Of a DNA stretch of 64,000 bases, positions 39,152 through 55,046 are shown one piece after another. The notes below the pieces were generated by a model. It was not told the origin of the DNA. It worked only from the letters and a program-made list of their open reading frames with translations, and searched no databases. Both the position numbers and the translations under genes were made by a program. The stretch is from Maricaulis sp. (GTDB lineage: Bacteria > Pseudomonadota > Alphaproteobacteria > Caulobacterales > Maricaulaceae): the NCBI RefSeq assembly GCF_017643475.1, contig NZ_JAEPNI010000003.1:62001-126000 (forward strand). Direction: 5' to 3'. The stretch's first letter is position 1. Each line of letters begins with the position of its first letter.

Positions 39152-39913
39152 TTATCCGCCGAGAAAGACGCGCTCGATGGTCCACCAGATGGCCATCAAT
39201 GCGATGGCACCGTTGGCGCCGCGAACCAGCGAGCTGCGATACCAGTCCTGTTCGAAAAACCAACGCAGGGCAAAATACATTGCTGCGATGATGGTCAGCT
39301 GTCCCAGTTCAACCCCGACGTTGAAACTCACCAGCGCGGGAACCAGCGCACTTCCAGGCAATCCGAGCTCAGATAACACGCCGGCAAAACCCAGCCCGTG
39401 AAACAGCCCGAAGCCGAAGACCACCAAGGGGCGCCATTTCTGCATGTCCTTGAAAAGAATGTTCTCGACAGCCACAAAAGCTATCGAAAGCGCGATGATC
39501 GGCTCGACGATTTGGCCCGGCACGACAATCAGTCCTGAAATCGCCAACCCCAACGTGATCGTATGCGCGATCGTGAAGCTCGAAACCTGCAGCACCAGCG
39601 GTTTCAGACGTGTAGAGGCGAAAAACAGCGCACACACGAACAAGATATGATCCAACCCCTTGGGGAGGATGTGCTCAAACCCCAGCTTCACGTAAAGCGC
39701 TATCGTCTCCCACAGGCCGCGTTCCAGCGTGACGTCGAATCCCAGTGCGGCTTCTCCAGAAGGCAACTCGCTGTCCATGCTTTCCAGTGCCGCACAGAGA
39801 TCCGGGTCCAGCCGACAGATTTCGTCCTCGGGGTGCGCCCAGGCAGTTGCCGCGCCCAGCACCATCAGTCCAAGCATCAGAACGAGGGAGCTGAGCACAA
39901 AAATTCTTGGCAT
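39152..39913 (-). CDS. HupE/UreJ-like membrane protein (copy 1, with signal peptide)
   Basis: The 253-residue polytopic protein has an N-terminal signal (cleavage near AWAH), a periplasmic segment (about 26-75) and six or so membrane helices. It carries the HupE/UreJ pattern of conserved His and Glu: GFEHILPKGLDHILF, FTIAHTITL, IVEPIIALSIAFVAVEN, FGLFHGLGFAGVL and FNVGVELGQL. HupE/UreJ relatives are thought to move nickel or other metals, but no hydrogenase or urease genes are nearby. A paralogue lies at 41613-42197 in the same orientation. GGAGG precedes the ATG. Confidence 0.85.
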   Translation of the reverse strand: MPRIFVLSSLVLMLGLMVLGAATAWAHPEDEICRLDPDLCAALESMDSELPSGEAALGFDVTLERGLWETIALYVKLGFEHILPKGLDHILFVCALFFASTRLKPLVLQVSSFTIAHTITLGLAISGLIVVPGQIVEPIIALSIAFVAVENILFKDMQKWRPLVVFGFGLFHGLGFAGVLSELGLPGSALVPALVSFNVGVELGQLTIIAAMYFALRWFFEQDWYRSSLVRGANGAIALMAIWWTIERVFLGG

Positions 39914-40164
39914 TCATGCCTCCGAAGGGTGGTCGCGCGCCGCCGAAGCGCGGTGGAAACTCCGCGTTACCTTATAACGGGAGCACAGTTATTTGGAGTA
40001 TCCACTACACTTGGGGATGCCGCTGCCGGAACCATTCGAAACCAAAGCAAGCAGCGGAAAATTATACGAAAACCGACCCTGCTGGCTTTCGTTCACTAGA
40101 ACGCCTCGACGAGTTGCTCAAATTTAATGTGACTCCACAATATCATATGAGACATGATTGTCTC
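39914..40164. other. Divergent intergenic region between the HupE-like and TetR genes
   Basis: This 251-base region is A/T-richer than its surroundings and holds the promoters of both neighbours. TTGCTC (40114-40119) with CAATAT (40138-40143), 18 bases apart, is a weak candidate promoter for the TetR gene. The frame of the TetR gene is open across the region, but the translation there is not protein-like. Confidence 0.45.
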
Positions 40165-40166
40165 AT
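40147..40166 (+). promoter_or_regulatory. Palindromic operator overlapping the TetR-family start codon
   Basis: Arms ATGAGACA (40147-40154) and TGTCTCAT (40159-40166) form a perfect 8-bp inverted repeat around TGAT. The right arm contains the first two bases of the ATG at 40165. It is a typical size for a TetR-dimer operator, so autoregulation of the TetR-desaturase pair is likely. No Shine-Dalgarno is visible before the ATG. Confidence 0.65.
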
Positions 40167-40722
40167 GAATGATCCAATCAGACCCACCGCCAAAAATGCT
40201 ATTATGGAAGCCGGTTTCCGACTTTTGTCAGCCGAGCCATCAAGCTCTCTGTCCCGCATCGCTGAACACGCCGGTGTCGGGAGAGCCACATTGCACCGTC
40301 ACTTTACTTGCAGGGACGAGCTTCTGCGGAAGCTTGCCATGCGCGCTTATGAAGAGATGGACGAGGCTGCGGAAAGCGCGGCAGAACACGCGCCTAGCTA
40401 TTCTGCCGCTCTCAAGAATATTCTGGACGCCCTCATCCCTCTCGGTGATCGCCACGGCTTTCTCGCACATTTTGGGCTCGAGGATGATGCAGAGCTGAAA
40501 AATGAAATTGCGCGCCAGGCTGAGGAAACGCGCGATCTGATCGACGCGGCTCGCGGGGAAGGACTGTTCGACCCTGCCATTCCAACAAGCTGGATCGAGC
40601 GCATGTACGACGCCGCGGTCATGGCCGGCTGGGAAAGCATGCGTGCCGAGGAAACAACCCTGAACCAGGCCAGCGAACTCGCCTGGAACAGCCTCATCAA
40701 GGGTGTAGGAGCGAAATCATGA
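40165..40722 (+). CDS. TetR/AcrR-family transcriptional regulator
   Basis: The 185-residue protein has an N-terminal TetR helix-turn-helix (AIMEAGFRLLSAEPSSSLSRIAEHAGVGRATLHRHF) and a helical ligand-binding domain ending AWNSLIKGVGAKS. It probably represses itself and the desaturase gene, whose ATG overlaps its stop (ATGA at 40719-40722). An in-frame ATG at 40147 is possible; 40165 gives the more usual start MNDPIRPTAKNA. The palindrome covering the start supports autorepression. The ligand is unknown; the partner suggests a lipid. Confidence 0.88.
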   Translation: MNDPIRPTAKNAIMEAGFRLLSAEPSSSLSRIAEHAGVGRATLHRHFTCRDELLRKLAMRAYEEMDEAAESAAEHAPSYSAALKNILDALIPLGDRHGFLAHFGLEDDAELKNEIARQAEETRDLIDAARGEGLFDPAIPTSWIERMYDAAVMAGWESMRAEETTLNQASELAWNSLIKGVGAKS

Positions 40723-41603
40723 ACGGTGATGCAATTGAGTATCTGGGCAGCCAAATTGATGATGCTTTCTTCCTTCTCGGCGCAGCCATCCTGCTGATCG
40801 AGCTGGTGACCGGTGTCTTCACGAAGAAGATGACCGGCCGGACCCTGCTGGACATGATCGCCAATATCTCGACCCAGATTCCCTATCTGGCCTTCGAAAT
40901 ATTTGTGATGGGATTTGTGTATCTCGGCTTTGTCGCCATCAATGCGAACTTCGTCAGCTGGGATATTCCAGTGACGCTATGGAGCGTGGTTCTCGCGCTC
41001 CTGGTCGCCGACTTCACCTATTATTGGGAACACCGAATGGCGCATGAAATCCGTCTGTTGTGGACCCAGCATGCCGTGCATCACTCTTCTCGCTTCATGA
41101 ACATCAGCGTGGCGATCCGCTTCGGGCCGTTTGAGAGCCTGACATCAGCGATCTTCCATCTGCCCATGCTGTTCATGGGCTTTCATCCAGGCGTCGTCTT
41201 CTTCTCGATCGTCGTGGTGCAGGCCTATCAGACCTGGATCCACACCGAATTGGTCGGCAAGCTGGGCGTGCTGGACGGCATCCTGAACACACCCGCCAAT
41301 CACCGGGTCCACCACGGCTGTGACGACAAGTATATCGACAGGAATTACGGCGGCATCCTGATCATCTGGGACCGCATCTTCGGCACCTATCAGCGCGAAG
41401 AGGAAACCCCGCACTACGGCCTGGCGCGCGACTTTAACAGCGTCAATCCGCTGGCCGTCTGGTTCTCGGAACTTCCGGGCCTCTTCAGGGACCTCGGCTC
41501 GGCCCGCAATGCCGGAGAATGGTGGGGGTATCTTTCGAAGCGACCCGGATGGGCGCCTGAAAATGGCTCTGCCAAGCGTCAGATGGAAGGGCCGGCTGAA
41601 TAG
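40719..41603 (+). CDS. Sterol desaturase/fatty-acid hydroxylase-family protein
   Basis: The 294-residue integral membrane di-iron oxygenase has the histidine clusters of the family: YYWEHRMAHE (HxxxH), QHAVHHSS (HxxHH) and NHRVHHGCD (HxxHH), plus EETPHYGL. It should hydroxylate or desaturate a lipid at the inner membrane. AGGAG precedes the ATG, and the start overlaps the TetR stop. The C-terminus (GWAPENGSAKRQ) is soluble. Substrate is not predictable; hopanoid, carotenoid or fatty acid are all possible. Confidence 0.9.
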   Translation: MNGDAIEYLGSQIDDAFFLLGAAILLIELVTGVFTKKMTGRTLLDMIANISTQIPYLAFEIFVMGFVYLGFVAINANFVSWDIPVTLWSVVLALLVADFTYYWEHRMAHEIRLLWTQHAVHHSSRFMNISVAIRFGPFESLTSAIFHLPMLFMGFHPGVVFFSIVVVQAYQTWIHTELVGKLGVLDGILNTPANHRVHHGCDDKYIDRNYGGILIIWDRIFGTYQREEETPHYGLARDFNSVNPLAVWFSELPGLFRDLGSARNAGEWWGYLSKRPGWAPENGSAKRQMEGPAE

Positions 41604-41610
41604 CCGGCTC
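41589..41610. terminator. Hairpin between convergent genes, weak terminator
   Basis: GCCGGCT (41591-41597) and AGCCGGC (41602-41608) form a 7-bp stem around GAAT and include the desaturase stop codon. No T-run follows, so termination efficiency is doubtful. Confidence 0.45.
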
Positions 41611-41612
41611 CC

Positions 41613-42197
41613 CTAGCCTCCCAGAAACACGCGTTCGATCGTCCACCACAGCGCCATCAGCGCGATGAGACCAGTGCCCCCCAGACGGAGATAATTATAG
41701 GCAGGCTTCTCGCGCCACCAGAACACGGCGATCCACGCCATGGCCAGGATCGACAATTGCCCCAGCTCAACCCCGACATTGAAGCTGATAAGCGCGGCTG
41801 CCAGATCGCCTTCCGGCAAGCCCAGCTCACCCAATACGCCCGCGAACCCCAAGCCGTGAAAGAGCCCGAAGGCGAAAACCAGCGCGGGGCGCCATTTCTG
41901 GACATCCTTGAAGACGATGTTCTCGATCGCCACGAAGGCGATGGACAGCGCGATTATCGGCTCGACTATACTGCCCGGCAGGCTGACATGGCCCAACGTG
42001 GCCAGGGCCAGCGTGATCGTGTGGGCCAGGGTGAAAGCGGAGACCTGCCAGATCAGGTCCTTCCATTTTGATGATGCGAGAAAGAGAGCCAGGACAAAAA
42101 GAATATGGTCCAGGCCCAGCGGCAGGATGTGCTCGTAACCCAGCTTGAGATAAAGCCAAATCACGTCCCAAACCGTCTGTTCCACAGCATCCAGCAT
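41613..42197 (-). CDS. HupE/UreJ-like membrane protein (copy 2, without signal peptide)
   Basis: The 194-residue polytopic protein is a clear paralogue of the product at 39152-39913. It has the same His/Glu blocks (GYEHILPLGLDHILF, FTLAHTITL, EPIIALSIAFVAIEN, FGLFHGLGFAGVL, FNVGVELGQL) and the same end IERVFLGG. It lacks the periplasmic N-terminal segment and signal peptide. The start at 42197 has AGGGTGAG just upstream; ATGs at 42236-42239 would add 14 residues. Role as for copy 1: possible metal transport, unproven. Confidence 0.84.
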   Translation of the reverse strand: MLDAVEQTVWDVIWLYLKLGYEHILPLGLDHILFVLALFLASSKWKDLIWQVSAFTLAHTITLALATLGHVSLPGSIVEPIIALSIAFVAIENIVFKDVQKWRPALVFAFGLFHGLGFAGVLGELGLPEGDLAAALISFNVGVELGQLSILAMAWIAVFWWREKPAYNYLRLGGTGLIALMALWWTIERVFLGG

Positions 42198-42218
42198 AGC
42201 ACTCACCCTTGATCGCGC

Positions 42219-42285
42219 TTGACGGATCGATGTCATCACGCGAAATTATTTTAGTTCTAAATTATCTCCGACTCGCAGTCCTGCG
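42219..42285 (+). promoter_or_regulatory. Candidate promoter/operator region of the kyn-anthranilate unit
   Basis: This A/T-rich gap before kynA contains TTGACG (42219-42224) with AAATTA 18 bases downstream. It also has two short inverted repeats with 2-base spacers: TTTAG-TT-CTAAA (42250-42261) and CGCAG-TC-CTGCG (42274-42285). The first is a reasonable size and position for a MarR-dimer site, and a MarR gene lies within the unit. This is by eye only. Confidence 0.4.
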
Positions 42286-42302: not shown

Positions 42303-43157
42303 ATGAATATGACCGACACCTTCTCCTCGCAAGTCGATGTCTCTGATGAAGATATTCATTGGGATTTCAAGGACGACATGTCCTACGGCAAGTATCTCCG
42401 TCTGGACACCATCCTGTCCCAGCAGGAATTGCTGACCGGCGAGCATGACGAGATGTTGTTCATCGTCATCCACCAGGTCGCCGAATTGTGGATGAAGCTG
42501 GTGATCCACGAGATTGAGGCTGCCTCCCGCCGTATTGCGCAGAACGAGGTCGGACCGGCGCTGAAGATGCTGACGCGGGTGTCGCGCACCCAGGAACAAC
42601 TGATCGAGGCCTGGTCGGTTCTGGCGACCATGACCCCTGCTGATTACCTGGTTTTCCGCGACAAGCTGGGCCACAGCTCGGGTTTCCAGTCCTATCAATA
42701 TCGCACAATCGAATTCCGCCTGGGCAACAAGAACGCCGCCATGGCGCGCGTGCACAAGGATAATCCGGTTGCCCACGCCATGGTCACCGAAGCACTGACC
42801 AAGCCCAGCATCTGGGATGAGACGCTCGCCTTCCTCGCCCGCAAGGGATACGAGGTTCCGAAGGACCGGCTGGAGCGTGACTGGAGCGAAGCCTACGAGG
42901 CGAGCGAACAGGTCGAGGCGGTCTGGCGCGAGATCTACGCTAACAGCGAGAAACACTGGGAAGCCTATGAACTCGGCGAGAAACTCGTCGACGTCGAGCA
43001 CAAGTTCCAGCAATGGCGTTTCAATCACATGAAAACTGTCGAGCGTATCATCGGCTTCCGCAAGGGCACTGGCGGCACAGCCGGTGTGGGCTATCTGGTC
43101 AGGGCCCTGGATCTTCGTTTCTTCCCGGAAATCTGGACCGTGCGGACGCTGCTCTGA
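42303..43157 (+). CDS. kynA: Tryptophan 2,3-dioxygenase
   Basis: The 284-residue heme enzyme opens the indole ring of L-tryptophan to N-formylkynurenine. Seen are YGKYLRLDTILSQQ, FIVIHQVAELWMKLVIHE (active-site His and substrate pocket), YQYRTIEFRLG with the carboxylate-binding Arg, and the axial heme His in RFNHMKTVERIIG near residue 240. The C-terminal GTGGTAGVGYL binds the ammonium group. It opens the kynurenine genes; kynB follows after 3 bases. ATGs at 42303 and 42309 are both possible starts. Confidence 0.97.
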   Translation: MNMTDTFSSQVDVSDEDIHWDFKDDMSYGKYLRLDTILSQQELLTGEHDEMLFIVIHQVAELWMKLVIHEIEAASRRIAQNEVGPALKMLTRVSRTQEQLIEAWSVLATMTPADYLVFRDKLGHSSGFQSYQYRTIEFRLGNKNAAMARVHKDNPVAHAMVTEALTKPSIWDETLAFLARKGYEVPKDRLERDWSEAYEASEQVEAVWREIYANSEKHWEAYELGEKLVDVEHKFQQWRFNHMKTVERIIGFRKGTGGTAGVGYLVRALDLRFFPEIWTVRTLL

Positions 43158-43160
43158 TCC

Positions 43161-43787
43161 ATGAAACATCTCTGGGACATATCACAACCGCTCCGCGCCG
43201 AGCTGCCTGTCTGGCCCGGTGACACCGCTTTCCAACGCGAAGACAACTGGGTGATTTCCGACGAGTGCCCCGTCAAGGTCTCCCGCCTGACCCTGTCCAC
43301 GCACTCCGGTGCCCATGCGGATGCGCCGGAGCATTATGACCGTGATGGCACAGATATCGCCTCGGTTTCGCTGGAGCCCTACCTGGGGGAATGTGTGCTG
43401 GTCACCGCGGGCGGTTCCGGTGTCGATGTGACGCCAGACGATGTTGACTGGGACAAGATCGGCGCCCATGCACGGGTTCTGGTGCGAACTTATGAGTATT
43501 TCCCGCACGACAGCTGGGACAGTGATTTCCGTGCCATCAATGCGTCAACAGTCGAACGACTGGCTGCTGCCGGCTGCAAGCTGATCGGCACCGACGCTGC
43601 CTCGCTTGATCCGGAAACATCCAAGACGCTCGACGCGCATCACGCTGTCAAACGGCATGACATGCGCATTCTGGAAGGCCTCGTCTTCGACGGCGTACCG
43701 GACGGACGATACGAGCTGATCGCCCTGCCCCTGCCCATCATCAATGCGGACGCCTCGCCCGTTCGCGCGATTTTGAGAGAACTCTGA
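43161..43787 (+). CDS. kynB: Kynurenine formamidase
   Basis: The 208-residue cyclase-family metal hydrolase splits N-formylkynurenine to kynurenine and formate. The two-metal site is in THSGAHADAPEHY (His, His, Asp, His) near residues 48-60, with WPGD near 18 and a further His in DAHHAVKRHDM. It lies 3 bases after kynA and 1 base before kynU. This metal-dependent bacterial type differs from the alpha/beta-hydrolase type of eukaryotes. Confidence 0.96.
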   Translation: MKHLWDISQPLRAELPVWPGDTAFQREDNWVISDECPVKVSRLTLSTHSGAHADAPEHYDRDGTDIASVSLEPYLGECVLVTAGGSGVDVTPDDVDWDKIGAHARVLVRTYEYFPHDSWDSDFRAINASTVERLAAAGCKLIGTDAASLDPETSKTLDAHHAVKRHDMRILEGLVFDGVPDGRYELIALPLPIINADASPVRAILREL

Positions 43788-43788
43788 G

Positions 43789-45018
43789 ATGACCCTCGAC
43801 GAGATCAACGCGCTTGATGCCACCGATCCGCTGCGCGAGATGCGCGACCTGTTCACCATTCCTGATGGCGTGATCTATCTGGACGGTAATTCGCTGGGTG
43901 TCCTGCCCAAGGCGACGCCTGACGCGATGAGCGACATGATCCACCGCCAGTGGGGCCAGGATCTCATTCGCTCCTGGAACAGCAATGACTGGATCAATGC
44001 GCCCCGTCGCCTGGGTGACAAGATCGGAAGCCTGATCGGCGCGGCGCCCGGTCAGGTCGTTGCAGCCGATTCCACATCCGTAAACGTATTCAAGGCACTG
44101 TCTGCAGCTTCTCAACTCAACTCTGACAAGTCGGCTTTGCTTTCCGAGACCGGGAATTTTCCGACAGACGCCTACATGATGGAGGGGCTTGCAAGCGCCT
44201 CCGGTCGTCAGCTCAGTGCCGAGCTGGTCGAACGTTCGCAAATTCTGGAGCGTCTCACAAAGGGGGATGTTGCCGCCCTGCTCCTCACCCAGACGCATTA
44301 CAAGACCGGTGCGCTCTGGGACATGGCAGAGGTTACACGCCGCGCCCACGACGTTGGCGCCCTGGTGATCTGGGATCTCAGCCATTCCGCCGGAGCCCTG
44401 CCTGTCGAGCTGGATGCCTGCAACGCCGATTTCGCCGTCGGGTGTGGCTATAAATACCTCAATGGCGGCCCTGGTGCGCCCGCCTTCATCTATGTGGCAG
44501 AGCGTCATCAGGGCAAGGTCATGCCCGCGCTTTCCGGATGGATGGGCCATGCGGCGCCGTTCGCCTTCGACGACCGCTACGATGCCGGCAAGGGCATTGA
44601 CCGGTTTCTGTGCGGCACTCCGGGGATTCTCGGCATGTGTGCGCTGGAAGTCGGGCTGGATATCTTCGCGGACGTCGACATGGCCGCCCTGCGCAGGAAA
44701 TCACAAATGCTGGGCGACCTCTTTATCAAGCTGGTTGAGGAAAACACGTCCGGTTTCGAACTGGCCTCACCGCGTGTCGCTGAACACAGAGGCAGCCAGG
44801 TGTCGATCCGTCATCGCGACGGATACGCGATCATGCAGGCGCTGATCGATCGCGGCGTCATTGGTGATTTCCGTGCTCCGGACATCCTGCGGTTCGGCTT
44901 CACCCCGCTCTACACCCGCTACAGCGATGTCTGGACGGCGGTTTCCGAGCTCGCCGATGTGATGAACACGAATAGCTGGAAGGACGAGAAATATACCGTC
45001 CGCGCCGCCGTGACCTAG
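43789..45018 (+). CDS. kynU: Kynureninase
   Basis: The 409-residue PLP enzyme cleaves L-kynurenine to anthranilate and L-alanine. The family features are FTIPDGVIYLDGNSLGVLPK, ADSTSVNVFKALSAAS, WDLSHSAGALPVELDACNADFAVGCGYKYLNGGPGAPAF (PLP Asp and Schiff-base Lys in GYKYLNGG) and LRFGFTPLYTRYSDVW. No kynurenine 3-monooxygenase is present, so the pathway branches to anthranilate, which the genes downstream consume. Confidence 0.97.
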   Translation: MTLDEINALDATDPLREMRDLFTIPDGVIYLDGNSLGVLPKATPDAMSDMIHRQWGQDLIRSWNSNDWINAPRRLGDKIGSLIGAAPGQVVAADSTSVNVFKALSAASQLNSDKSALLSETGNFPTDAYMMEGLASASGRQLSAELVERSQILERLTKGDVAALLLTQTHYKTGALWDMAEVTRRAHDVGALVIWDLSHSAGALPVELDACNADFAVGCGYKYLNGGPGAPAFIYVAERHQGKVMPALSGWMGHAAPFAFDDRYDAGKGIDRFLCGTPGILGMCALEVGLDIFADVDMAALRRKSQMLGDLFIKLVEENTSGFELASPRVAEHRGSQVSIRHRDGYAIMQALIDRGVIGDFRAPDILRFGFTPLYTRYSDVWTAVSELADVMNTNSWKDEKYTVRAAVT

Positions 45019-45027
45019 GAGACGATG

Positions 45028-47112
45028 ATGAGCCCTGTTTCCACCCGAAAAACCGGTTCTGTCCTGGTCATCACCATCGATCACCCGCCGGTCAACGCAC
45101 TCTCGCATTCCGTTCGCGAGGGCATAGTAAGCGCACTCAACTCGGCACCGGCGAGTACGAATGCTGCGGTATTGCAATGTGCCGGACGAACCTTCTTTTC
45201 AGGCGCAGATATCTCCGAGTTCGGCAAACCGCCCCAGGCGCCCAGCCTCGCTGACGCGATCTCAGCCCTGGAAAACGCGCCCTTCCCGGTCATTGCCGCC
45301 ATTCACGGACAGGCGCTGGGCGGCGGTCTGGAGATCGCTCTGGGCTGTGATTACCGGGTGATGGATGCGCGTGCAAAAGTCGGGCTTCCCGAGGTCAATC
45401 TGGGTCTGATCCCCGGCGCGGGCGGCACGCAACGCCTGCCTCGTATCGCCGGCATGGCGCTTGGCCTGGAAATGGCAAGCCAGGGCAAGCCAATCTCGGC
45501 GACCAAGGCTCTTGAAGCCGGGATCGCCGATGCGATCGCGAATGATGACCTTGCTGGCTCAGCGCTGGAGTTTGCGAAAAGCAAGACCCGCAACGACAAA
45601 CGCTCTACAGGGGCGCTTCCCAATCCCGGGCACGATCAGTCGGCGCTGGACCACTGGAGGGCCCATGCGGACAAACGCCAGCGCGGTCAAAAGGCCCCGC
45701 TCGCGGCAATCGATGCCGTCGAAGCCAGTGGCACGCTGGACATCCAGGCCGGCTTGAAAAAGGAGCGCGAACTGTTCGTTGAGCGCATGTCGGACACGCA
45801 GTCCGCTGCCATGCGCCATCTCTTCTTCGCCGAGCGTAAATCCGCCAAACTTCCCGGCGTCGCTGCAGAGCCCCGCAAACTCGAACGCGCGGCCGTCATC
45901 GGCAGTGGCACAATGGGAGTCGGCATAGCCGCTTCGCTCCTTTCTGTGGGCCTGTCTGTCAAGCTGCTGGACATGTCAGACCAGGCCCTGCAGGCCGGTT
46001 ACAATCGCATCAAGGGCATTTTCCAGAATGACGTTGCCAAGGGGCGGTTGAGTGAAACTGCCTGCTCGGCAGTTCTGCAGCGTCTGACCGCCACCACGAA
46101 GTACGCAGACCTTTCGGACTGTGAAATCGTCATCGAGGCCGTGTTCGAAGATATCGAAATCAAGCACAAGGTCTTCGCCCAGTTGACGGAAGCGGTAAGC
46201 GAGAAGGCCATCCTGGCAACCAACACATCCTATCTCGATGTAGACGCGATAGCAGATCGCGTCCCCAATCCAGAACGCGTTCTGGGCCTCCATTTTTTCT
46301 CACCCGCGCACATCATGCGGCTTCTCGAGGTTGTGCGTGGCGCGAAGACGGATCCGTCCGTCCTGGCCACTGCCATGTTGCTGGGCAAGCGTATGCGCAA
46401 GGTCGCGGCAGTTTCCGGTGTTTGCCATGGCTTCATCGGCAATCGCATGCTGTCCTGCTACGGGCGCGAGGCCGGGTTGATGCTTCTGGAGGGGGCTTCA
46501 CACCGCCAGATCGACAAGGCCCTCACCGATTTCGGCATGCCGATGGGGCCCTTCACCATGGGTGATATGGCGGGCCTCGATATCGGCTACATGAACCGGC
46601 AGAAGCTTGACCCGGAGAGTTTTGAGCAGCGGGCTTTTCTCATCCATGACCGTCTGGTCGAGATGGGGCGCAAGGGCCAGAAAACCGGCGCGGGCTTCTA
46701 TCGCTATGAAAGGGGCAATCGCGCACCGCTGGATGACGAAGCACTTGACGAAATTCTGGCTACGGCACGCTCGGAACAGGGCGTCACTCTGCGTGAGGTA
46801 GATGATGGTGAGATCGTCGATCGCTGCATGCTCGCGCTGATCAACGAAGGAGCGAAAATCCTCGACGAAGGGATCGCGTGGCGTGGCAGTGATGTCGACG
46901 TGGTCTACGCCAATGGCTACGGCTTCCCGCGTTATCGCGGTGGTCCGATGTTCCACGCCGACACGATCGGCCTAGACAAGGTACTTGCCGGTATTCGTTC
47001 CAATGCCGAACGCTTCGGAGCGCGCTGGTGGACACCTTCGGATCTGCTGGTCCGGCTTGCGGAAACGGGTGGTCGCCTTTCCGCTCATGAAATCAACACA
47101 GGAGCCGCGTGA
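45028..47112 (+). CDS. Fused enoyl-CoA hydratase/3-hydroxyacyl-CoA dehydrogenase (FadB-like)
   Basis: The 694-residue multifunctional protein has an N-terminal crotonase domain (about 1-190; oxyanion-hole segments [14 protein letters not shown] and [18 protein letters not shown], acid residues in [17 protein letters not shown]). After it come a linker, an NAD-binding domain ([15 protein letters not shown] near 290) and the dehydrogenase C-terminal domains ([19 protein letters not shown]). It would hydrate and dehydrogenate ring or open-chain CoA intermediates of anthranilate breakdown. AGGAG at 45017-45021 fits ATG 45028 better than ATG 45025. The next gene starts within its stop (TGATG). Confidence 0.93.
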
Positions 47113-49406
47113 TGAAGATTGCTTGCCTGGGCGGTGGTCCCGCCGGCCTCTACTTCGCAATTTCCATGAAGCTGCGCGATCCCGATTGCGAGATCGACGT
47201 CTATGAGCGTAACAAGCCAGGGGACACTTTTGGCTGGGGCGTGGTCTTTTCCGATCAGACCATGGAAAACCTGGAAGGCAATGACCCGATCAGCGCAGCA
47301 TCCATTGGCGACAGTCTTGCCCACTGGGATGATATCGACGTGCATTTCGGTGGCAGTGTCGAGACGTCTACGGGGCACGGGTTCTGCGGCATCGGGCGCA
47401 AGCACCTGCTGAACATACTCCAGGACAGGGCTCGTGAGCTGGACATCAATCTGCACTTCGAAGTCGAGATCGAACCGGGTCTGGATCAATTCTCCGACGC
47501 CGACATCATCATCGCCTCAGACGGCCTCAACTCGAAGATCCGCAACACCTACGCCGATGTTTTCAAGCCGGATATCGAGGTTCGTCAGAACAAGTTCATC
47601 TGGCTTGGCACAAACAAGGTGTTTGAGGCCTTCACCTTCATCTTCACCGAAACCGAACATGGATGGGTCTGGGCGCACGCCTATCGTTTTGACGACGAAA
47701 CCTCGACCTTCATCGTGGAATGCGAACCGGAGACCTGGGAAAAGCTGGGGTTTGACCAGCTCGACAAAGAGGAGACCTGTCGCAAGTGCGAAGCGCTCTT
47801 TGCGGACTGGCTGGACGGTAATGAGCTCATGTCTAATGCCCGCCATCTGCGCGGCTCGGCCTGGCTGAATTTCCCGCGTGTTCTGTGTGAGACCTGGATC
47901 CATGACAATGTGATCCTGCTGGGTGACGCAGCTCACACGGCCCACTTCTCGATTGGTTCAGGCACAAAGCTGGCATTCGAGGACGCCATCATGCTGGCGG
48001 ACGTTCTGACCTCGACCGAGAAACCGCTCGCCGAAGGCCTGCATGACTACCAGGAAGCGCGAAAGGTCGAGGTTCTCAAACTCCAGAGCGCAGCGCGCAA
48101 TTCCACCGAATGGTTCGAACATCTCGACCGCTATCTCGGTTTCGAACCCAAGCAGTTTGCCTATTCCCTGCTCACCCGCTCCCAGCGCATCAGCCACGAG
48201 AACCTTCGCCTGCGTGACGAGAAATGGCTTGGCAGTGTGGAGAGCTGGTTTGCCAAAACGGCCACAAAAAAAGCCGACACACCATCGCGCCCGCCGATGT
48301 TTGCGCCATTCGAGCTGCGCGACATGCGGCTGGAAAACCGCGTCGTGGTTTCTCCGATGTGCATGTATTCCGCCAAGGACGGCACACCCAACGCCTTCCA
48401 CAAGACACACTACGGCGCGCGCTGTATCGGCGGCGCCGGGCTGGTCTATACCGAAATGACGGATGTCAGCGCCGACGCGCGCATCACGCCGGGCTGCGCC
48501 GGACTCTACACCGATGAACATGTTGCGGCTTGGCGTGAAATCACCGACTTCGCCCACAGCCGCAGCAGCGCCAAAATGGCTATCCAGCTCAGTCATGCCG
48601 GTCGCAAGGGCTCCACCCGTATCGGCTGGGAAGGCTATGACCTGCCGCTCGAAAGCGGAAACTGGGAGATCATCGCCCCCTCTCCGATCGCCTGGTCAGA
48701 CGGCAACCAGATCCCGCGAGAGATGACCCGTGCCGACATGCATGCCGTCAAGGCGGATTTTGTTGCAGCGACAAGGCGCGCTCTGGAGGCCGGTTTCGAT
48801 CTGGTCGAGCTTCACTGTGCCCACGGCTATCTGCTCTCCAGCTTCATCACACCAATCTCAAACCAGCGCACCGACGAATACGGCGGATCGCTCGACAATC
48901 GAATCAAGTTTCCGCTGGAAGTCTTTGAAGCGATGCGCAATGTCTGGCCATCAGACAAGCCGATGGCGATCCGTCTGTCAGCCACTGACTGGCTCGGTGA
49001 AGACGGCATTACCGGCGATGACACGGTGCGTATTTCCCAGGCCTTTATAGAGGCTGGCGCCGATCTGATCGATGTGTCTGCCGGCCAGACCAGCCCGCTC
49101 GCACGTCCGGTCTACGGACGCATGTTCCAGACACCGTTCTCTGATCAGATCCGCAACACACTTGGCTGCGCCACCATGGCGGTTGGCAATATCTTTGAAC
49201 CCGATCACGTCAATTCGATCCTCGCGGCCGGCCGGGCCGACCTGGTCGCCCTCGCCCGCCCGCATCTGGCGGACCCGAACTGGACTCTGCGCGCCGCCGC
49301 GGAACTCGGTTATCGCGGCGTTACCGCACCCAACCCCTATGTCGCCGGCTTTGAACAGCTTGGCCGCAATCTCAAAAAAGCCCAGGAAATGGAGCAACGC
49401 GCATGA
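47112..49406 (+). CDS. Bifunctional anthraniloyl-CoA monooxygenase/reductase
   Basis: The 764-residue flavoenzyme has two halves. The N-terminal FAD monooxygenase domain ([13 protein letters not shown] at residue 4, [22 protein letters not shown] near 275) is of the salicylyl-CoA 5-hydroxylase/2-aminobenzoyl-CoA type. The C-terminal half (from about 395) is an Old Yellow Enzyme-type FMN domain ([65 protein letters not shown]). The family enzyme from Azoarcus hydroxylates and reduces 2-aminobenzoyl-CoA to a non-aromatic 2-amino-5-oxocyclohexene-carboxyl-CoA. It overlaps both neighbours (TGATG and ATGA). Confidence 0.94.
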
Positions 49407-50161
49407 GCACGCTAAACGGACGCACAGCCGTCATCACAGGTGGCGGAACCGGTATCGGTGTCGCCTGTGCCAAGGGTCTCGCTGCCCAGGGCGCCAGGGT
49501 CATTCTGATGGCCCGCAATCTGGAACGTCTCGAAGCCGCCGCTGCTGAAATCGATGGCGCAAAGGCGATCAAGGTCGATGTCACCGATGATGCCAGCGTC
49601 GCCCAGGCCTTTGGTTCTGCCATGGCAGATGGCCCGGTGGACATCCTCGTCAACAATGCCGGTATCGCTGCAGCATCCGCCTTCCACAAGACCTCGCTGG
49701 AAGAGTGGCGGCGCATCCAGGCCGTTAATGTCGAAGGCCTGTTTCGCTGCACCCAGGCTGTTATCGGCGAAATGATGCGTTCCGACTATGCGCGGATCGT
49801 CAACATCGCCTCGATCGCAGGTCTGCGTGGTGGCGCCTATATTGGTCCCTATGTCGCCTCAAAACACGCTGTCGTCGGCCTGACCAAGTCCCTGTCGCTG
49901 GAATATGCAAAGACCAACATGACCGTGAACGCGGTCTGCCCGGGTTATGTAGACACAGCGATTGTCGACAATTCCGTCGCCAACATCATGGAGAAGACCG
50001 GCCGTTCCCGCGACGAGGCCCTGGCCGAACTAACGAAGAACAACCCCCAGGGGCGTCTGATCCGGCCCGAGGAAGTTGCGGAAATGGTCACCTGGCTTTG
50101 CTCTCCACTCAGCGCGTCCGTTTCCGGTCAAGCCATCATGATAGCCGGCGGCGCAATCTAG
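49403..50161 (+). CDS. Short-chain dehydrogenase/reductase
   Basis: The 252-residue NAD(P)-dependent SDR has the cofactor motif [21 protein letters not shown] and the catalytic Ser and YxxxK in [10 protein letters not shown] and [15 protein letters not shown], followed by VCPGYVDT. A 3-hydroxyacyl-CoA or cyclic alcohol dehydrogenase role in the anthraniloyl-CoA pathway is likely from context. Its ATG overlaps the monooxygenase stop and its TAG overlaps the MarR GTG start. Confidence 0.92.
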
Positions 50162-50646
50162 TGTCGCTCGCGGCAACTCATACCCCCGCGGCTCCGCAAC
50201 AACATCTTCGCCTCTGGCTGCGTCTCTATCGTACTGTCGGCCTGATTGAACGCGAGATCCGCGCTCGCCTGACCCGTGAGTACAACGTCAGCCTGGCCCG
50301 GTTTGACCTGATGTCTACCCTGGAACGCGCGGATGGCCCGTTGACCATGGGCCAGCTCTCCGAGCGCCTTTTGGTAAGCAACGGCAATGTCACCGGCCTG
50401 ATCACGCGTCTGGTCGAGGATGATTGGGTGACCCGCACGCCTCTGCCCAACGATCGCCGCAGCTATCACATCGAAACCACCGAAAAGGGCCGCGAATGTT
50501 TTGCCCAAATCGCCACGGCTCATGCCGCCTGGGTTGATGAACTGCTGAACGCCGTACCGGCCGACATTGCCGAGGCACTCAGCGAAAATCTCGACCACAT
50601 CCTGCATTCACCCCGTTTCAAGTCCGGAGACCACCGTGCGCCTTGA
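50161..50646 (+). CDS. MarR-family regulator embedded in the pathway unit
   Basis: The 161-residue winged-helix protein has [70 protein letters not shown], the complete MarR recognition helix, wing and DR-x-R segment. GTG at 50161 overlaps the SDR stop (TAGTG), and the end overlaps the next gene by 11 bases. MarR proteins commonly bind aromatic acids or their CoA esters, so this is probably a pathway-specific repressor released by anthraniloyl-CoA or anthranilate (inference). Candidate operator near 42250-42285. Confidence 0.91.
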
Positions 50647-51451
50647 TCCAGCAAACTACACACCTGAACACTTCCTCTGGCAGTTCGAGGACGGCATTGG
50701 CCGCATCACCCTCAATCGCCCTGAACGCAAGAATCCGCTGACTTTCGAGAGTTATGCCGAGCTGCGCGATTTCCTGCGTGACCTCTGCTATGTGCCGGAT
50801 GTGAAGGTGCTGGTCTTTTCCGGTGCCGGCGAGAATTTCTGTTCCGGCGGTGATGTGCACGAAATCATCGGACCGCTGGTCCAGATGGATATGCCTGGAT
50901 TGCTCGATTTCACTCGCATGACCGGCGATCTCGTCAAGGCGATGCGGGACTGCCCGCAACCCATAATCGCCGCCATCGATGGTATCTGTGTTGGGGCAGG
51001 TGCGATTATCGCCATGTCCTCTGACCTGCGCATTTCAACACAGCGTTCCAAGACCGCATTCCTGTTCAACCGTGTGGGCCTGGCGGGCTGTGATATGGGC
51101 GCCTGCGCGATCCTGCCGCGCATCATCGGCCAGGGCCGCGCGTCCGAACTGCTCTATTTCGGTCGCTCGATGAGCGCGGAAGAAGGCGAACGTTGGGGCT
51201 TCTTCAATTCGATCGTCGAACCCGATGCATTGATGGAAAAGGCGCTGGACTGGGCAAAACGCATCCGTACAGGCCCGACCTTTGCCAATGCCATGACCAA
51301 GAACCAGCTCAACACAGAGTGGGATATGAGCCTGCACACGGCCATCGAGGCGGAAGCCCAGGCCCAGGCGATCTGCATGAAGACCAAGGACTTCGAACGC
51401 GCCTATCGTGCCTTCGTGGCCAAGGAAAAACCGGTTTTCGAGGGCGACTGA
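50636..51451 (+). CDS. Enoyl-CoA hydratase/isomerase-family protein
   Basis: The 271-residue crotonase has [14 protein letters not shown], the oxyanion-hole segments [16 protein letters not shown] and [22 protein letters not shown], and [29 protein letters not shown] with the usual C-terminal region. GTG at 50636 with GGAG at 50625-50628 is preferred, overlapping marR by 11 bases. It probably hydrates, or opens, a cyclic enoyl-CoA intermediate of the anthraniloyl-CoA route. The acyl-CoA dehydrogenase follows after one base. Confidence 0.92.
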
Positions 51452-51452
51452 C

Positions 51453-52616
51453 ATGGCAGATCGTTCCTATCTCGACTGGCCTTTTCTGGACGACAAACAC
51501 CGCCGGCTTGCGGCGGAGATCGAAACCTGGGCCAACGACCGCTTCGGCGATGACGGGTTTCACGATCATGCCGATGTCGATGCTGACTGCCGAGCTATCC
51601 TGAAAGACCTTGCTGCAGCCGGGTGGACCGCTCATTCGGTCCCGGTCAATACGGACCGCCTGGACGTACGCACGCTCTGCCTGATCCGCGAACACCTGGC
51701 TTATCGATCAGGCCTCGCGGATTTCGTCTTTGCCATGCAGGGTTTGGGGTCCGGCGCAATCTCGTTGTTCGGGACACCGGAGCAACGCCAGCGCTATCTG
51801 CGCAAAGTAGCAGCCGGTGAGTTCTGCGCCGCCTTCGCGCTCACCGAACCGGAAGCAGGATCGGACGTCGCCAACCTCGCGACAACTGCCGAGCTGGTCG
51901 ATGGAGAATACCGGCTCAATGGCGAAAAGACCTTCATCTCCAATGGCGGAATTGCCGATTTTTACGTCGTGTTCGCCCGGACGGGTGAGGCAGAAGGCGC
52001 ACGCGGCCTCAGCGCCTTCATTCTCGATGCTGACACGCCGGGGCTGCAGATTGTTGAACGTATCGACACCATCGCCCCGCACCCGCTGGCGCATTTGCGG
52101 TTCAATGATTGCCGCCTGCCCCTGGATCGTCTGATCGGCACATCTGGTCAGGGCTTCAAGATTGCCATGGCAACGCTCGACGTCTTTCGCTCCACGGTGG
52201 GCGCCGCAGCGCTGGGCTTTGCACGGCGTGCGCTTGATGAGGCCACCAGACGTTCCACGACACGTCAGCTGTTTGGGGCGGCGCTCTCCGACCTTGCCGG
52301 TGTGCAGACCCAGCTCGCCGAAATGGCACTGGGTATCGATACCAGCGCCCTGCTCATCTATCGCGGCGGGTGGGCGAAGGATAGCGGCGCAGAGCGCATC
52401 ACCCGCGAAGCCGCCATGTCAAAGCTGCACGCGACCGAAACCGCCCAACAGGCAATCGACATGGCTGTGCAGATCTTTGGCGGCCTGGGTGTCACCAAGG
52501 GGTCGGTTCCCGAAGCCCTCTATCGCGAGATCCGGGCCCTGCGCATCTATGAAGGCGCCTCGGAGGTCCAGAAACTCGTTATTGCCCGCGCACACCTGTC
52601 CGGAGCGAAGTCATGA
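51453..52616 (+). CDS. Acyl-CoA dehydrogenase
   Basis: The 387-residue flavoprotein shows the family pattern: [22 protein letters not shown] (FAD and substrate binding, near residue 125), [33 protein letters not shown], and near the end [40 protein letters not shown] with the Glu of EGASE as candidate catalytic base. It should oxidise a saturated CoA thioester formed after ring cleavage or reduction. GAGGGCG precedes the ATG. It overlaps the thioesterase gene by ATGA. Confidence 0.93.
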
Positions 52617-53023
52617 CCTTCACACATCGGCACAAGGTCGGCTTTGCCGATGTGGACCCGGCCGGGATCGTCTTCTATCCGCGTTATTTCGAGATGATCA
52701 ACGCGACCATCGAGGATTGGTTCCGCACCCTGGATTATGGCTTCGACCAGATGATCCTCAGGGATGGATACGGCGTTCCCACCGCCACCATCCAGGTTGA
52801 TTTCAAGGCCCCAAGCCGACTGGACGACCTGGTCGAGCTGGAACTGAACCTCGTGCGACTGGGGCGCAGCTCCATCGGGCTGGAGATCCGGATCAGTGCT
52901 GAGGGCGAGCTCCGCGCACTTGTCCAGCAAACCCTCGTTTTCATTCGCATGGAAGGCAACAAGCCCGTGCGGATCCCGGACCCACTCAGGGCCCGCATCG
53001 AACGCAGCATGGAGGCAAGGTGA
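52613..53023 (+). CDS. Hot-dog-fold acyl-CoA thioesterase
   Basis: The 136-residue thioesterase of the 4-hydroxybenzoyl-CoA/YbgC type has the active-site segment [27 protein letters not shown] (Asp in DPAG) and the hot-dog core strands ([27 protein letters not shown]). It may release CoA from dead-end aromatic or alicyclic thioesters in the pathway. It overlaps the dehydrogenase by 4 bases and the RidA gene by 1 base (TGATG). Confidence 0.92.
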
Positions 53024-53415
53024 TGGATATCATCAATCCACGCGGATGGCCGCGCCCTCGCGGGTATTCTAACGGTATCAAGTGTGATGGCGAGATGATC
53101 TTCATTGCCGGACAGATCGGCTGGGATGAGACTGAAACCATCGTCTCTGATGATTTCGCCGAACAATTCCACCAGGCTCTGCAAAATGTGATCGCTGTTC
53201 TCGAGGCCGGTGGCGGCAAGCCGGAGAACATTGTCCGGCTGACAGGTTACGTGACTTCACGTGAAGAATATCTCGCGGCGGGCAAGTTGATCGGAGCGAG
53301 TTGGAAGGAGTTGATGGGGCGCAGTTATCCAGTGATGTCCTTTGTTATCGTCGCCGGGCTGATCGAGGAGCGCGCCAAGATCGAACTGGAAGCCACAGCG
53401 GTACTGCCGTCATGA
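53023..53415 (+). CDS. RidA-family enamine/imine hydrolase
   Basis: The 130-residue YjgF/YER057c/UK114-family protein has FIAGQIGWDE, the QNVIAVLEAGGGKPENIVRLTGYVTSREEY block and VIVAGLIEERAKIELEATAVL with Glu near the usual Arg-containing end. RidA proteins hydrolyse reactive enamines and imines to ketone and ammonia. The anthraniloyl-CoA product carries an amino group on a ring double bond, i.e. an enamine, so removal of nitrogen here is an attractive role (inference). GGAGG precedes ATG 53023; the start overlaps the thioesterase stop. Confidence 0.92.
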   Translation: MDIINPRGWPRPRGYSNGIKCDGEMIFIAGQIGWDETETIVSDDFAEQFHQALQNVIAVLEAGGGKPENIVRLTGYVTSREEYLAAGKLIGASWKELMGRSYPVMSFVIVAGLIEERAKIELEATAVLPS

Positions 53416-53444
53416 GCATTCTGGACAACACGCAGGAGGACAAG

Positions 53445-55046
53445 ATGATCGCCACTGGCCATGCCGATACATTCTGCCGGGATCGCCTCCCGCCCGCTGA
53501 CCAGCGCCCGGACCTCCTGTTCGGCGGAGAAGCCCCGCAATACGCGGATCGCCTGAACGCCGCAGTCGAGCTGCTCGATGCCAATGTCGACAAGGGGCTG
53601 GGTGACAAGACCGCGATCTACTCGGTTGCCGAGACCCTGACTTATCGCCAGCTCATGGAACGCGCCAACCAGCTGGCAAATTATCTCGTCGATGAAATGG
53701 GTGTCGTACCAGGAAATCGCGTTTTACTGCACGGCTTCAACGGCATCGCTCTCAGCGTCGCCTGGTATGCGACCATCAAGACCGGTGCTGTCGCGGTTAC
53801 CACAATGCCGATGCTGCGCGGAGGCGAACTGGCCAAGATTATTGCCAAGGCAGAAGTCAATTTTGCTCTGTGTGACAACAAGCTGCGCCCAGTTGTTGAG
53901 GAAGCGCGAGAGATTACTGGCAAGCTCGCCTGGATCGTCGACTGGGCCGGTGATGGCATGCTTGAAGATGATGTCGCCGGGAAACCTGTCACCTTCGACA
54001 ATGCCGACACCGCACGCGATGATATAGCGCTGCTGGCCTGTACCTCGGGCACGACGGGAGAGCCAAAGGCCTGCGCGCATTATCATTCTTCGGTTCTGGC
54101 CATGGCCGATACCTTCGCGCAGCATTGCCTGGAACCGCAGCCGGATGATGTTTACGCGGGCACGCCACCCCTGGCTTTCACATTTGGCCTGGGGGCCTTC
54201 CTGGTCTTCCCGGCCCGCGCAGGCCTTGCCGTTGCTTTCCCGGACCGACCAGGATTTGACGCCCTGTGCGAGACCGTCGAACGCTTCAAGGTGACGACGA
54301 CATTCACCGCTCCCACGGGGTATCGCGCGATGATGGGGCTGTGGGACCAGCATGATCTGTCCAGCCTTCGCAAGGGAATCTCGGCGGGCGAACACCTTCC
54401 GGCAGCGACGTCCGATGCCTTCCACACACTAACCGGCATCCGCCTGATTGATGGCATCGGTGCTACCGAGATGATCCACATCTTCATTTCGACCACCGCG
54501 ACAGATGTTCGTCCCGGTGCGACCGGACGTGTGGTGCGAGGGTATGAAGCGCGCATTGCAGACGAGAACGGCGAAACGCTGCCGGCTGGAGAAACCGGGC
54601 GTCTTGCGCTCAAGGGGCCGACCGGGTGTCTCTATCTCGATGATGACCGTCAGTCCCAGTATGTGCGGGATGGCTGGAACTATACCGGCGATCTCTACTC
54701 CCGGGATGCCGACGGGTATTTCTGGTACGTCTCACGCGCGGACGACCTGATTGTGTCCAGCGGCTATAATATCGCTGGCCCCGAAGTCGAACAGGCCCTG
54801 CGCACGCATGAAGCGGTCGCAGAAGCCGCTGTCGTTGGCCTGCCGGATCCGGAACGTGGGGCCGTTGTCAGCGCCTTTATTGTTCTCGCGGAGGGCGTTT
54901 CCGGTGATGAAACACTAATCAAGGCGCTTCAGGATCACGTCAAGACGAGTATCGCGCCGTACAAGTACCCGCGCCGGGTCGAATTCATCGAGACGCTGCC
55001 GAAAACACAGACTGGCAAGATTCAGCGTTTCAAACTTCGCGGATGA
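53445..55046 (+). CDS. 2-Aminobenzoate-CoA ligase (benzoate-CoA ligase family)
   Basis: The 533-residue adenylate-forming enzyme should activate anthranilate with ATP and CoA. It has LACTSGTTGEPKACAHYH (P-loop), DGIGATEMIHIFIST (A5/aromatic acid pocket), YVRDGWNYTGDLYSRDADGYFWYVSRADDLIVSSGYNI (A7-A8) and the A10 lysine in PKTQTGKIQRFKL. The subfamily follows from similarity to benzoate/anthranilate ligases and the cluster context. GGAGGA at 53435-53440, 4 bases before ATG 53445, favours this start; ATG 53412, overlapping the ridA stop, is an alternative adding 11 residues. Confidence 0.93.
   Translation: MIATGHADTFCRDRLPPADQRPDLLFGGEAPQYADRLNAAVELLDANVDKGLGDKTAIYSVAETLTYRQLMERANQLANYLVDEMGVVPGNRVLLHGFNGIALSVAWYATIKTGAVAVTTMPMLRGGELAKIIAKAEVNFALCDNKLRPVVEEAREITGKLAWIVDWAGDGMLEDDVAGKPVTFDNADTARDDIALLACTSGTTGEPKACAHYHSSVLAMADTFAQHCLEPQPDDVYAGTPPLAFTFGLGAFLVFPARAGLAVAFPDRPGFDALCETVERFKVTTTFTAPTGYRAMMGLWDQHDLSSLRKGISAGEHLPAATSDAFHTLTGIRLIDGIGATEMIHIFISTTATDVRPGATGRVVRGYEARIADENGETLPAGETGRLALKGPTGCLYLDDDRQSQYVRDGWNYTGDLYSRDADGYFWYVSRADDLIVSSGYNIAGPEVEQALRTHEAVAEAAVVGLPDPERGAVVSAFIVLAEGVSGDETLIKALQDHVKTSIAPYKYPRRVEFIETLPKTQTGKIQRFKLRG

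Follow-up and report, generated by a model that had tools for sequence, protein, structure and literature searches.

A compact Maricaulis gene unit that joins tryptophan-to-anthranilate genes to the anthraniloyl-CoA pathway, with a putative MarR operator upstream

The aerobic 2-aminobenzoyl-CoA (abm) pathway of Azoarcus (Aromatoleum) evansii, reportedly described by Schuehle et al. in 2001, is encoded by clusters that are said to contain also a MarR-like gene and a Rid-like gene ("translation inhibitor"), and the clusters described reportedly hold no kyn genes. A hallmark of the abm genes is a flavin monooxygenase fused to a reductase of the Old Yellow Enzyme (OYE) type. The three enzymes that lead from tryptophan to anthranilate are encoded in the kynBAU operon of Ralstonia/Cupriavidus metallidurans, reportedly described by Kurnasov et al. 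in 2003, with the ring-degrading genes said to lie outside that operon. The route from tryptophan through anthranilate to 2-aminobenzoyl-CoA has reportedly been proposed before for Cupriavidus genomes, so that as a whole it is not new. The present analysis concerns a window of 64,000 nucleotides (the whole stretch of DNA analysed; Maricaulis sp., contig NZ_JAEPNI010000003.1, positions 62,001 to 126,000), in which a unit of twelve plus-strand genes at 42303–55046 joins the same three enzymes to an abm-type set, and in which both a MarR gene and, ahead of the first of the twelve, a palindrome are found.

The Maricaulis unit has in common with A. evansii a CoA ligase, a 2-aminobenzoyl-CoA monooxygenase/reductase and beta-oxidation genes (passages of PMC4539516, together with general background); both the ligase and the flavin monooxygenase/OYE-type fusion are present in the window, and the unit differs in having kynABU joined to them and an operator before the kyn genes. 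In the available passages of PMC8879955, the kyn and abm genes of C. metallidurans CH34 are listed under different pathways. On a plasmid of Arthrobacter sp. Rue61a an anthranilate-yielding upper pathway is joined to a CoA-ester lower pathway with an anthranilate-CoA ligase and an anthraniloyl-CoA monooxygenase/reductase, as here, but the substrate is quinaldine, the upper genes are others, and the regulators named in the available part of PMC3534580 are of the PaaX type, not MarR. Ruegeria pomeroyi DSS-3, Ensifer sp. PDNC004 and Aminobacter sp. MSH1 carry blocks with tryptophan 2,3-dioxygenase (TDO) and anthraniloyl-CoA monooxygenase/reductase (ACMR) within a few to ~15 kb; these differ from the Maricaulis unit in using both strands and in that an alpha/beta hydrolase near TDO or the ligase replaces the cyclase-type KynB. 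The Ensifer and Aminobacter loci have ABC transporters, and the Ruegeria stretch has TDO only, with no kynU found. No description of a joined kyn–abm unit was found among the papers listed from the open-licence part of PMC, which covers the literature partially; searches for both gene sets together brought up one paper, the one on CH34. Each half is known, while the compact joining and the shared switch look new: the unit is real, well explained, recurrent in kind, and new in its compact form and regulation.

The twelve genes and the pathway they would encode

The unit is read here as a dedicated tryptophan catabolic operon, which would follow the anthranilate route by way of the CoA ester and would be controlled by its MarR regulator from the upstream site; on the sequence evidence a probability of about 0.78 is given to this reading. 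TDO, kynurenine formamidase (KFA) and kynureninase (KYN) would convert tryptophan to anthranilate, formate and alanine, the ligase would turn anthranilate into anthraniloyl-CoA, and ACMR, as predicted from context, would hydroxylate and reduce the latter to 2-amino-5-oxocyclohex-1-ene-carbonyl-CoA. Up to and including ACMR these steps follow from the named families and from published ACMR chemistry; the later ones we infer.

All twelve open frames are present, with a largest gap of 6 bp, which bears out the initial annotation (made from the sequence alone) in its description of twelve plus-strand genes that overlap or lie a few bases apart. The upper part begins with kynA for TDO (42303–43157; TIGR03036, 403 bits, cut-off 390.7), followed after 3 bp by kynB for KFA (43161–43787; TIGR03035, 260 bits, cut-off 223), after 1 bp by kynU for KYN (43789–45018; TIGR01814, 308 bits, cut-off 246) and after 6 bp by a gene for a FadB-like enoyl-CoA hydratase/3-hydroxyacyl-CoA dehydrogenase, recognised by its domains (45025–47112). 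The ACMR gene (47109–49406), a flavin monooxygenase fused to an OYE domain (PF01494, PF00724; NF006101, 1289 bits, cut-off 1078), overlaps the end of FadB by 4 bp. It is followed, with overlaps of 4, 1 and 11 bp, by genes for a short-chain dehydrogenase/reductase (SDR; 49403–50161; assigned by domains, with the catalytic Ser and Tyr in 84/84 rows), for the MarR-family regulator (50161–50646; PF01047) and for a crotonase-fold protein of the PRK08258 family (50636–51451; 485 bits, cut-off 330). One base pair further on lies the gene for an acyl-CoA dehydrogenase (ACAD; 51453–52616; assigned by domains, with the catalytic Glu in 69 of 73 rows and gaps in the other 4), and then, each overlapping its predecessor by 4 bp, those for a hotdog acyl-CoA thioesterase (TE; 52613–53023; 4HBT_2 domain), a Rid-family protein (53020–53415; domain and alignment) and an aryl-CoA ligase, predicted to be a 2-aminobenzoate (anthranilate)-CoA ligase (53412–55046; 365 bits, just below the subfamily cut-off of 375). 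Where the listed frame was longer, the start codon was picked by the analyst (MarR, GTG at 50161; crotonase, GTG at 50636; ACAD, ATG at 51453). The unit ends at 55046, and an L-serine ammonia-lyase gene starts 310 bp further on.

The gene identities given in the initial annotation agree with these NCBIfam and domain matches and with the solved structures nearest to the products. The best solved relative of the ligase is the anthranilate-CoA ligase 4wv3 (318 bits, against 247 bits for the benzoate-CoA ligase 2v7b), and that of the kynureninase is the Pseudomonas fluorescens enzyme 1qz9, whose Trp, Gly and Thr are matched by Trp63, Gly276 and Thr277 of the window protein, at positions that we take to set the preference for kynurenine. 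In human chain 3e9k the first of the three positions is His and the last Asn; chain 7s3v, presumably an engineered human kynureninase, has Trp and Thr there. The three residues are kept in all 26 aligned rows, i.e., the window and 25 of the 26 loci with a match, at scores of at least 300 (L and G numbers denote loci and genomes; L002 and L098 are one contig). Besides the FadB-like protein of the unit, the genome encodes one other of full length.

The branches that would draw kynurenine or anthranilate away were sought by family searches of the whole genome, which is 3.26 Mb in size and 99.99% complete. For kynurenine 3-monooxygenase no candidate was seen in the FAD_binding_3 search, since its ten matches consist of a single strong one that is UbiH-like (88 bits), ACMR itself (26.7 bits) and eight weak and mostly short ones, of which only L109 is annotated (aminoacetone oxidase family). 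The search for anthranilate dioxygenase with TIGR03228 gave three weak matches in the genome, none above the cut-off and nearest to GbcA or SdmA. Both absences stated in the initial annotation therefore hold at the scale of the genome, as far as these family searches reach. A genome search for 3-hydroxyanthranilate dioxygenase (3-HAO) gave no match, but its control was equally silent, so that this result carries no weight.

The upstream palindrome and the MarR regulator

A putative MarR operator, the palindrome TATTTTAGTTCTAAATTA, lies at 42247–42264, 38 bp before the TDO start, and agrees in 13 of 14 positions with TATTTTA-N4-TAAAATA. The exact form TTAGNNCTAA, tried first, is present in the window, in L001 (the copy of the window in its own genome) and in L002, and in no other locus. 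The wider palindrome was derived from the upstream regions of Maricaulis loci, and it and the 11/14 threshold were set after part of the data had been seen, so that both are post hoc. A first scan gave 50 sites of at least 13/16 over 2.05 Mb of loci, while 0.88 Mb of base-shuffled sequence gave none. In the 300 bp upstream of ACMR the palindrome reaches at least 11/14 in 55 of 88 scored loci (14 further ones were dropped for an unrecognised start, and the window is among the 33 misses), compared with 7 of 440 stretches drawn at random from these loci, which could themselves include true sites.

The presence of the MarR gene tracks that of the palindrome. Among 82 loci (8 more were set aside because the start was not recognised and 11 because the flanks were short), those with a MarR gene within 6 kb had the palindrome in 54 cases and lacked it in 7, whereas those without one had it in 2 and lacked it in 19 (p 6e-11). 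With a wider start pattern, which admitted 89 loci, MarR and site occurred together in 57 and were both missing from 19, while MarR alone was found in 9 and the site alone in 4. Among 9 supported independent pairs, an average of 5.6 had the site going with MarR and 0.1 had it going against MarR; the median sign-test p was 0.03 (range 0.016–0.375).

Where the site stands differs between loci. Before ACMR the window scores no better than 7/14, against 13/14 before TDO, and nowhere else in the genome does a sequence come within one mismatch of the palindrome; two more places have two mismatches, compared with one genome place for the reversed control pattern. L003 and L004 keep the site between FadB and ACMR, in a spacer of 74 bp, and have none before TDO, whereas in L007 it stands before TDO as well as before ACMR, there in a spacer of 57 bp; the window and L002 no longer have a FadB/ACMR spacer. 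Where the two halves are split, the site stands before ACMR (L005, L006, L097) and not before TDO (L096, L099, L100). L092 has the palindrome before neither gene, and TetR and DUF2855 genes (L092:12616–14470) take the place of MarR. Among 25 TDO upstream regions scored, only those of the window, L002 (counted also as L098) and L007 have the palindrome. It looks as though the ACMR operator was relocated to a position before the tryptophan genes in the lineage of the window, with MarR as its probable binder. MarR is predicted to repress the unit through the palindrome and to be released by a pathway intermediate, and because the lower-pathway operator would have moved from ACMR to the front of the tryptophan genes, all twelve genes could be driven by a single controlled promoter.

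At 39152–42239 of the window a TetR regulator and a fatty acid hydroxylase lie between two HupE/UreJ_2 proteins, the second of which is divergent and adjoins the operator.

Recurrence of the linkage and the Maricaulis insertion site

In a sample of 299 genomes of the phylum, the ACMR family was found in 42 and kynureninase in 66; kynureninase was present in 32 of the 42 ACMR genomes and in 34 of the 257 others (Fisher p 2e-16, kinship not corrected). In 8 of the 32 genomes with both (G000, G099, G194, G197, G217, G232, G246 and G247; family codes f1, f10, f12, f15, f22 and f34) the two lie at most 15 kb apart, where ~0.2 would be expected by chance, and on these counts chance adjacency of the kyn and abm genes was rejected. 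In a sample of the order, likewise of 299 genomes, kynureninase lay within 15 kb in 6 of the 65 with ACMR (G000, G306, G377, G382, G526 and G571). The co-occurrence and the recurrent adjacency strengthen the functional tie between the halves that the initial annotation had drawn; the uniqueness of the joining that it implied is contradicted, since the linkage recurs in more than one family of the phylum, as well as on plasmids of rhizobia, with the genes in differing orders.

Named loci were taken as the best 80 of 509 by ACMR similarity, and the closest named ACMR is that of a Maricaulis metagenome-assembled genome (L002, 91% identity). Same-strand joined units are found among them in L002, L003, L004 and L007, where the gene order that was to be sought in other genomes is indeed present; other loci, within and beyond these 80, show other orders. 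Thus, TDO or KYN is on the strand opposite ACMR in L018, L021, L030 and L062, as are the kyn genes in L086, L087, L088 and L091, and L068 has a partial TDO at a contig end. L085 reads ACMR-SDR-MarR-ECH-ACAD-LIG-TDO-KYN-TE-Rid on a single strand, and L089 likewise with KYN before TDO, both being ten-gene versions without KynB and FadB; L090 runs from ACMR to LIG and continues with KYN-TDO. The placement of kynABU and FadB ahead of ACMR is seen here only in Maricaulis (the window, L002, L003, L004 and L007). On a 102-row ACMR tree the same-strand label (12 rows, among them L068 and two plasmid loci, L117 and L118, in which kynA alone shares the ACMR strand) requires 7 changes, at least 4 of them on well supported branches.

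On plasmids, linked but scattered kyn and abm genes are seen in Ruegeria pomeroyi (TDO only), Aminobacter and Ensifer. Plasmid pRLCBG43 of Rhodococcus erythropolis BG43 (L120) has ACMR, ligase, thioesterase and Rid genes adjoining aqd alkylquinolone genes, which yield anthranilate and would be another possible source of it. Haloarchaeal plasmids (H155–H160) encode ACMR-like proteins of 35–41% identity at 93–96% query coverage, and in L038, L040, L044, L047, L059 and L079, mostly Sphingomonas, ACMR occurs without the palindrome and with no other abm genes recognised in its flanks.

In three sister loci (L096, L099 and L100) the order is M14 peptidase, M2 peptidase, HupE/UreJ, TDO, KFA, KYN, serine dehydratase and a resistance-nodulation-division (RND) pair, with nothing inserted at the site between kynU and the dehydratase; L-serine ammonia-lyase adjoins kynU directly where the abm block is not inserted there. 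The block lies exactly at this site in the window, L002, L003, L004, L007 and L092, the last without FadB and MarR. In two Maricaulis genomes the halves could be seen on both sides and are far apart: G343 (L096, L097) and G402, which is M. maris (L099, L006). Two Hyphobacterium loci (genus code g156) have a split block: L101 (G437) holds FadB and SDR between KYN and serine dehydratase, with ACMR ~1 Mb away, and L010 (H. indicum), whose ACMR place coincides with that of G302, has an ACMR block with crotonase, ACAD, Rid and ligase and with no SDR or FadB. Even with the block split, then, FadB and SDR remain beside the kyn genes. The Maricaulis branches of the ACMR tree do not show whether the fusion was gained or lost; the neighbouring of KYN and FadB in L101, together with that of FadB and ACMR in Marinicauda L008, favours an old joined state. 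The kyn genes belong to a gene neighbourhood for using amino acids and peptides that is conserved in Maricaulis (window 33005–60938; L096, L099, L100), with M14 carboxypeptidase, M2 peptidase, HupE/UreJ, kyn genes, serine ammonia-lyase and an RND efflux pair.

Steps after ACMR and the weighing of alternatives

The available passages on the route name no enzyme for nitrogen release or ring opening after ACMR. In the linked Rid proteins, the position of RidA Arg105 is Met in 71 of 74 rows (Ile in 1, a gap in 2; L098 and L104 are the same contigs as L002 and L006), whereas the Tyr17 position is Tyr in 72 and Phe in 2, and the Glu120 position is Glu in 66, Gln in 5, Thr in 1 and a gap in 2. Of the paralogs in the same genome, L125 reads "HARSAV", with Arg at the expected place by eye, and L124 is broken by a stop. 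RidA Arg105 contacts substrate carboxylates and is replaced in Rid4–7 (passages of PMC4433059). Its loss in the linked proteins would fit a substrate that is a CoA thioester and has no free carboxylate at that end. The crotonase-fold protein has Ile (81/87 rows) and Thr or Asn (86/87) at the two positions that we take to be those of the catalytic Glu residues of hydratases, and an Asp153 invariant in 87/87 rows, which aligns with an Asp of the 1,2-epoxyphenylacetyl-CoA isomerase 4fzw, a protein with the same residue pattern at the Glu positions. The FadB-like proteins keep both hydratase Glu residues and the dehydrogenase His in 13/13 rows; hydration can therefore be assigned to FadB, leaving the crotonase free for isomerisation or ring opening. 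Together the Rid and crotonase residues suggest enamine hydrolysis and ring opening on CoA thioesters; like the upstream site and the comparison of insertion sites, they go beyond the initial annotation. In anthranilate-grown Arthrobacter sp. Rue61a, anthraniloyl-CoA, C7H7NO3-CoA and C7H8O4-CoA were detected, and the last was suggested to be cyclohexanedione-carboxyl-CoA (passages of PMC3534580), a composition that fits enamine hydrolysis of the ACMR product.

In the proposed sequence of steps, Rid would hydrolyse the enamine and free ammonia, the crotonase-fold protein would open the ring, which if hydrolytic would give 4-oxopimeloyl-CoA, and SDR, ACAD and FadB would carry on with beta-oxidation, together with a thiolase encoded outside the unit; the thioesterase would serve as an outlet. 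A more detailed proposal is offered tentatively, at somewhat worse than even odds: the Arg-to-Met Rid deaminates a CoA-thioester enamine, the Glu-less crotonase opens the ring of 2,5-dioxocyclohexane-carbonyl-CoA, MarR senses a CoA ester of the pathway and took over the kyn genes by relocation of its operator, and Maricaulis genomes preserve the stages of the fusion.

Several observations weigh against a MarR-controlled tryptophan operon. Among the 82 loci, L011 and L041 have the palindrome with no recognised MarR nearby, and the seven with MarR and a score below 11/14 include the window's sister L002. A scan for consensus promoters made no prediction at the operator, and the counts of predicted promoters and terminators came near those of shuffled sequence (7 against 4.4, sd 2.0, and 12 against 10.6, sd 3.3). 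Some ACMR loci, e.g., L038, L040 and L044, lack the remaining abm cluster, and the NCBIfam title of model NF006101 is salicylyl-CoA 5-hydroxylase. No thiolase is found among the twelve genes, and since four thiolase-family genes are located elsewhere in the genome, outside the window, to call the system "self-contained", as the initial annotation did, is too strong; nor does family annotation recognise a transporter in the unit. C. metallidurans CH34, which is listed with both kyn and abm genes, is stated in available passages not to grow on anthranilate (PMC8879955) and not to use tryptophan (PMC2842291).

The missing transporter and thiolase, as well as the failure of CH34 to grow on anthranilate, would be accounted for if the unit served mainly to detoxify kynurenine or anthranilate or to scavenge nitrogen from them, rather than growth. 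This is improbable, given that the unit has a beta-oxidation set with its own FadB besides the other FadB of the genome at C7, and that the upstream M14 and M2 peptidase genes, also present in the sister loci, suggest feeding on peptides. If the kyn and abm genes were instead two ordinary modules that adjoin each other, with no joint function and separate regulation, then their wide separation in G343 and G402 and the operator between FadB and ACMR in L003 and L004, which argues for separate control there, would be expected. The co-location count in the phylum sample, the overlap of the FadB stop with the ACMR start and the loss of the internal operator in the window, and the retention of FadB and SDR with the kyn genes in Hyphobacterium make it rather improbable too.

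The title of NF006101, a model that the fusion enzyme passes, and its use in plasmid records would have ACMR be a salicylyl-CoA 5-hydroxylase and the lower genes serve salicylate. Such a role is very doubtful: kynU in the same unit yields anthranilate, the solved enzyme nearest to the ligase is an anthranilate-CoA ligase, ACMR is accompanied in 73 of 103 loci by a Rid protein, as would be expected for a nitrogen compound, and the ACMR of the Rhodococcus relative adjoins aqd genes; no salicylate-forming gene was recognised among the twelve. Arthrobacter proteins that are 50% identical to the A. evansii enzyme were, moreover, assigned to 2-aminobenzoyl-CoA in the available part of PMC3534580.

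Read as a MarR-controlled tryptophan operon, the unit suggests that the name "bifunctional salicylyl-CoA 5-hydroxylase/oxidoreductase" of NF006101 may be misleading for many genomes, whose gene contexts point to anthraniloyl-CoA. It also names testable candidate catalysts for two steps after ACMR, nitrogen release and ring opening. It would be a case of an upper and a lower aromatic pathway becoming one regulated unit, with related genomes that show the halves apart, or else joined and carrying an internal operator, two operators, or the upstream operator only.

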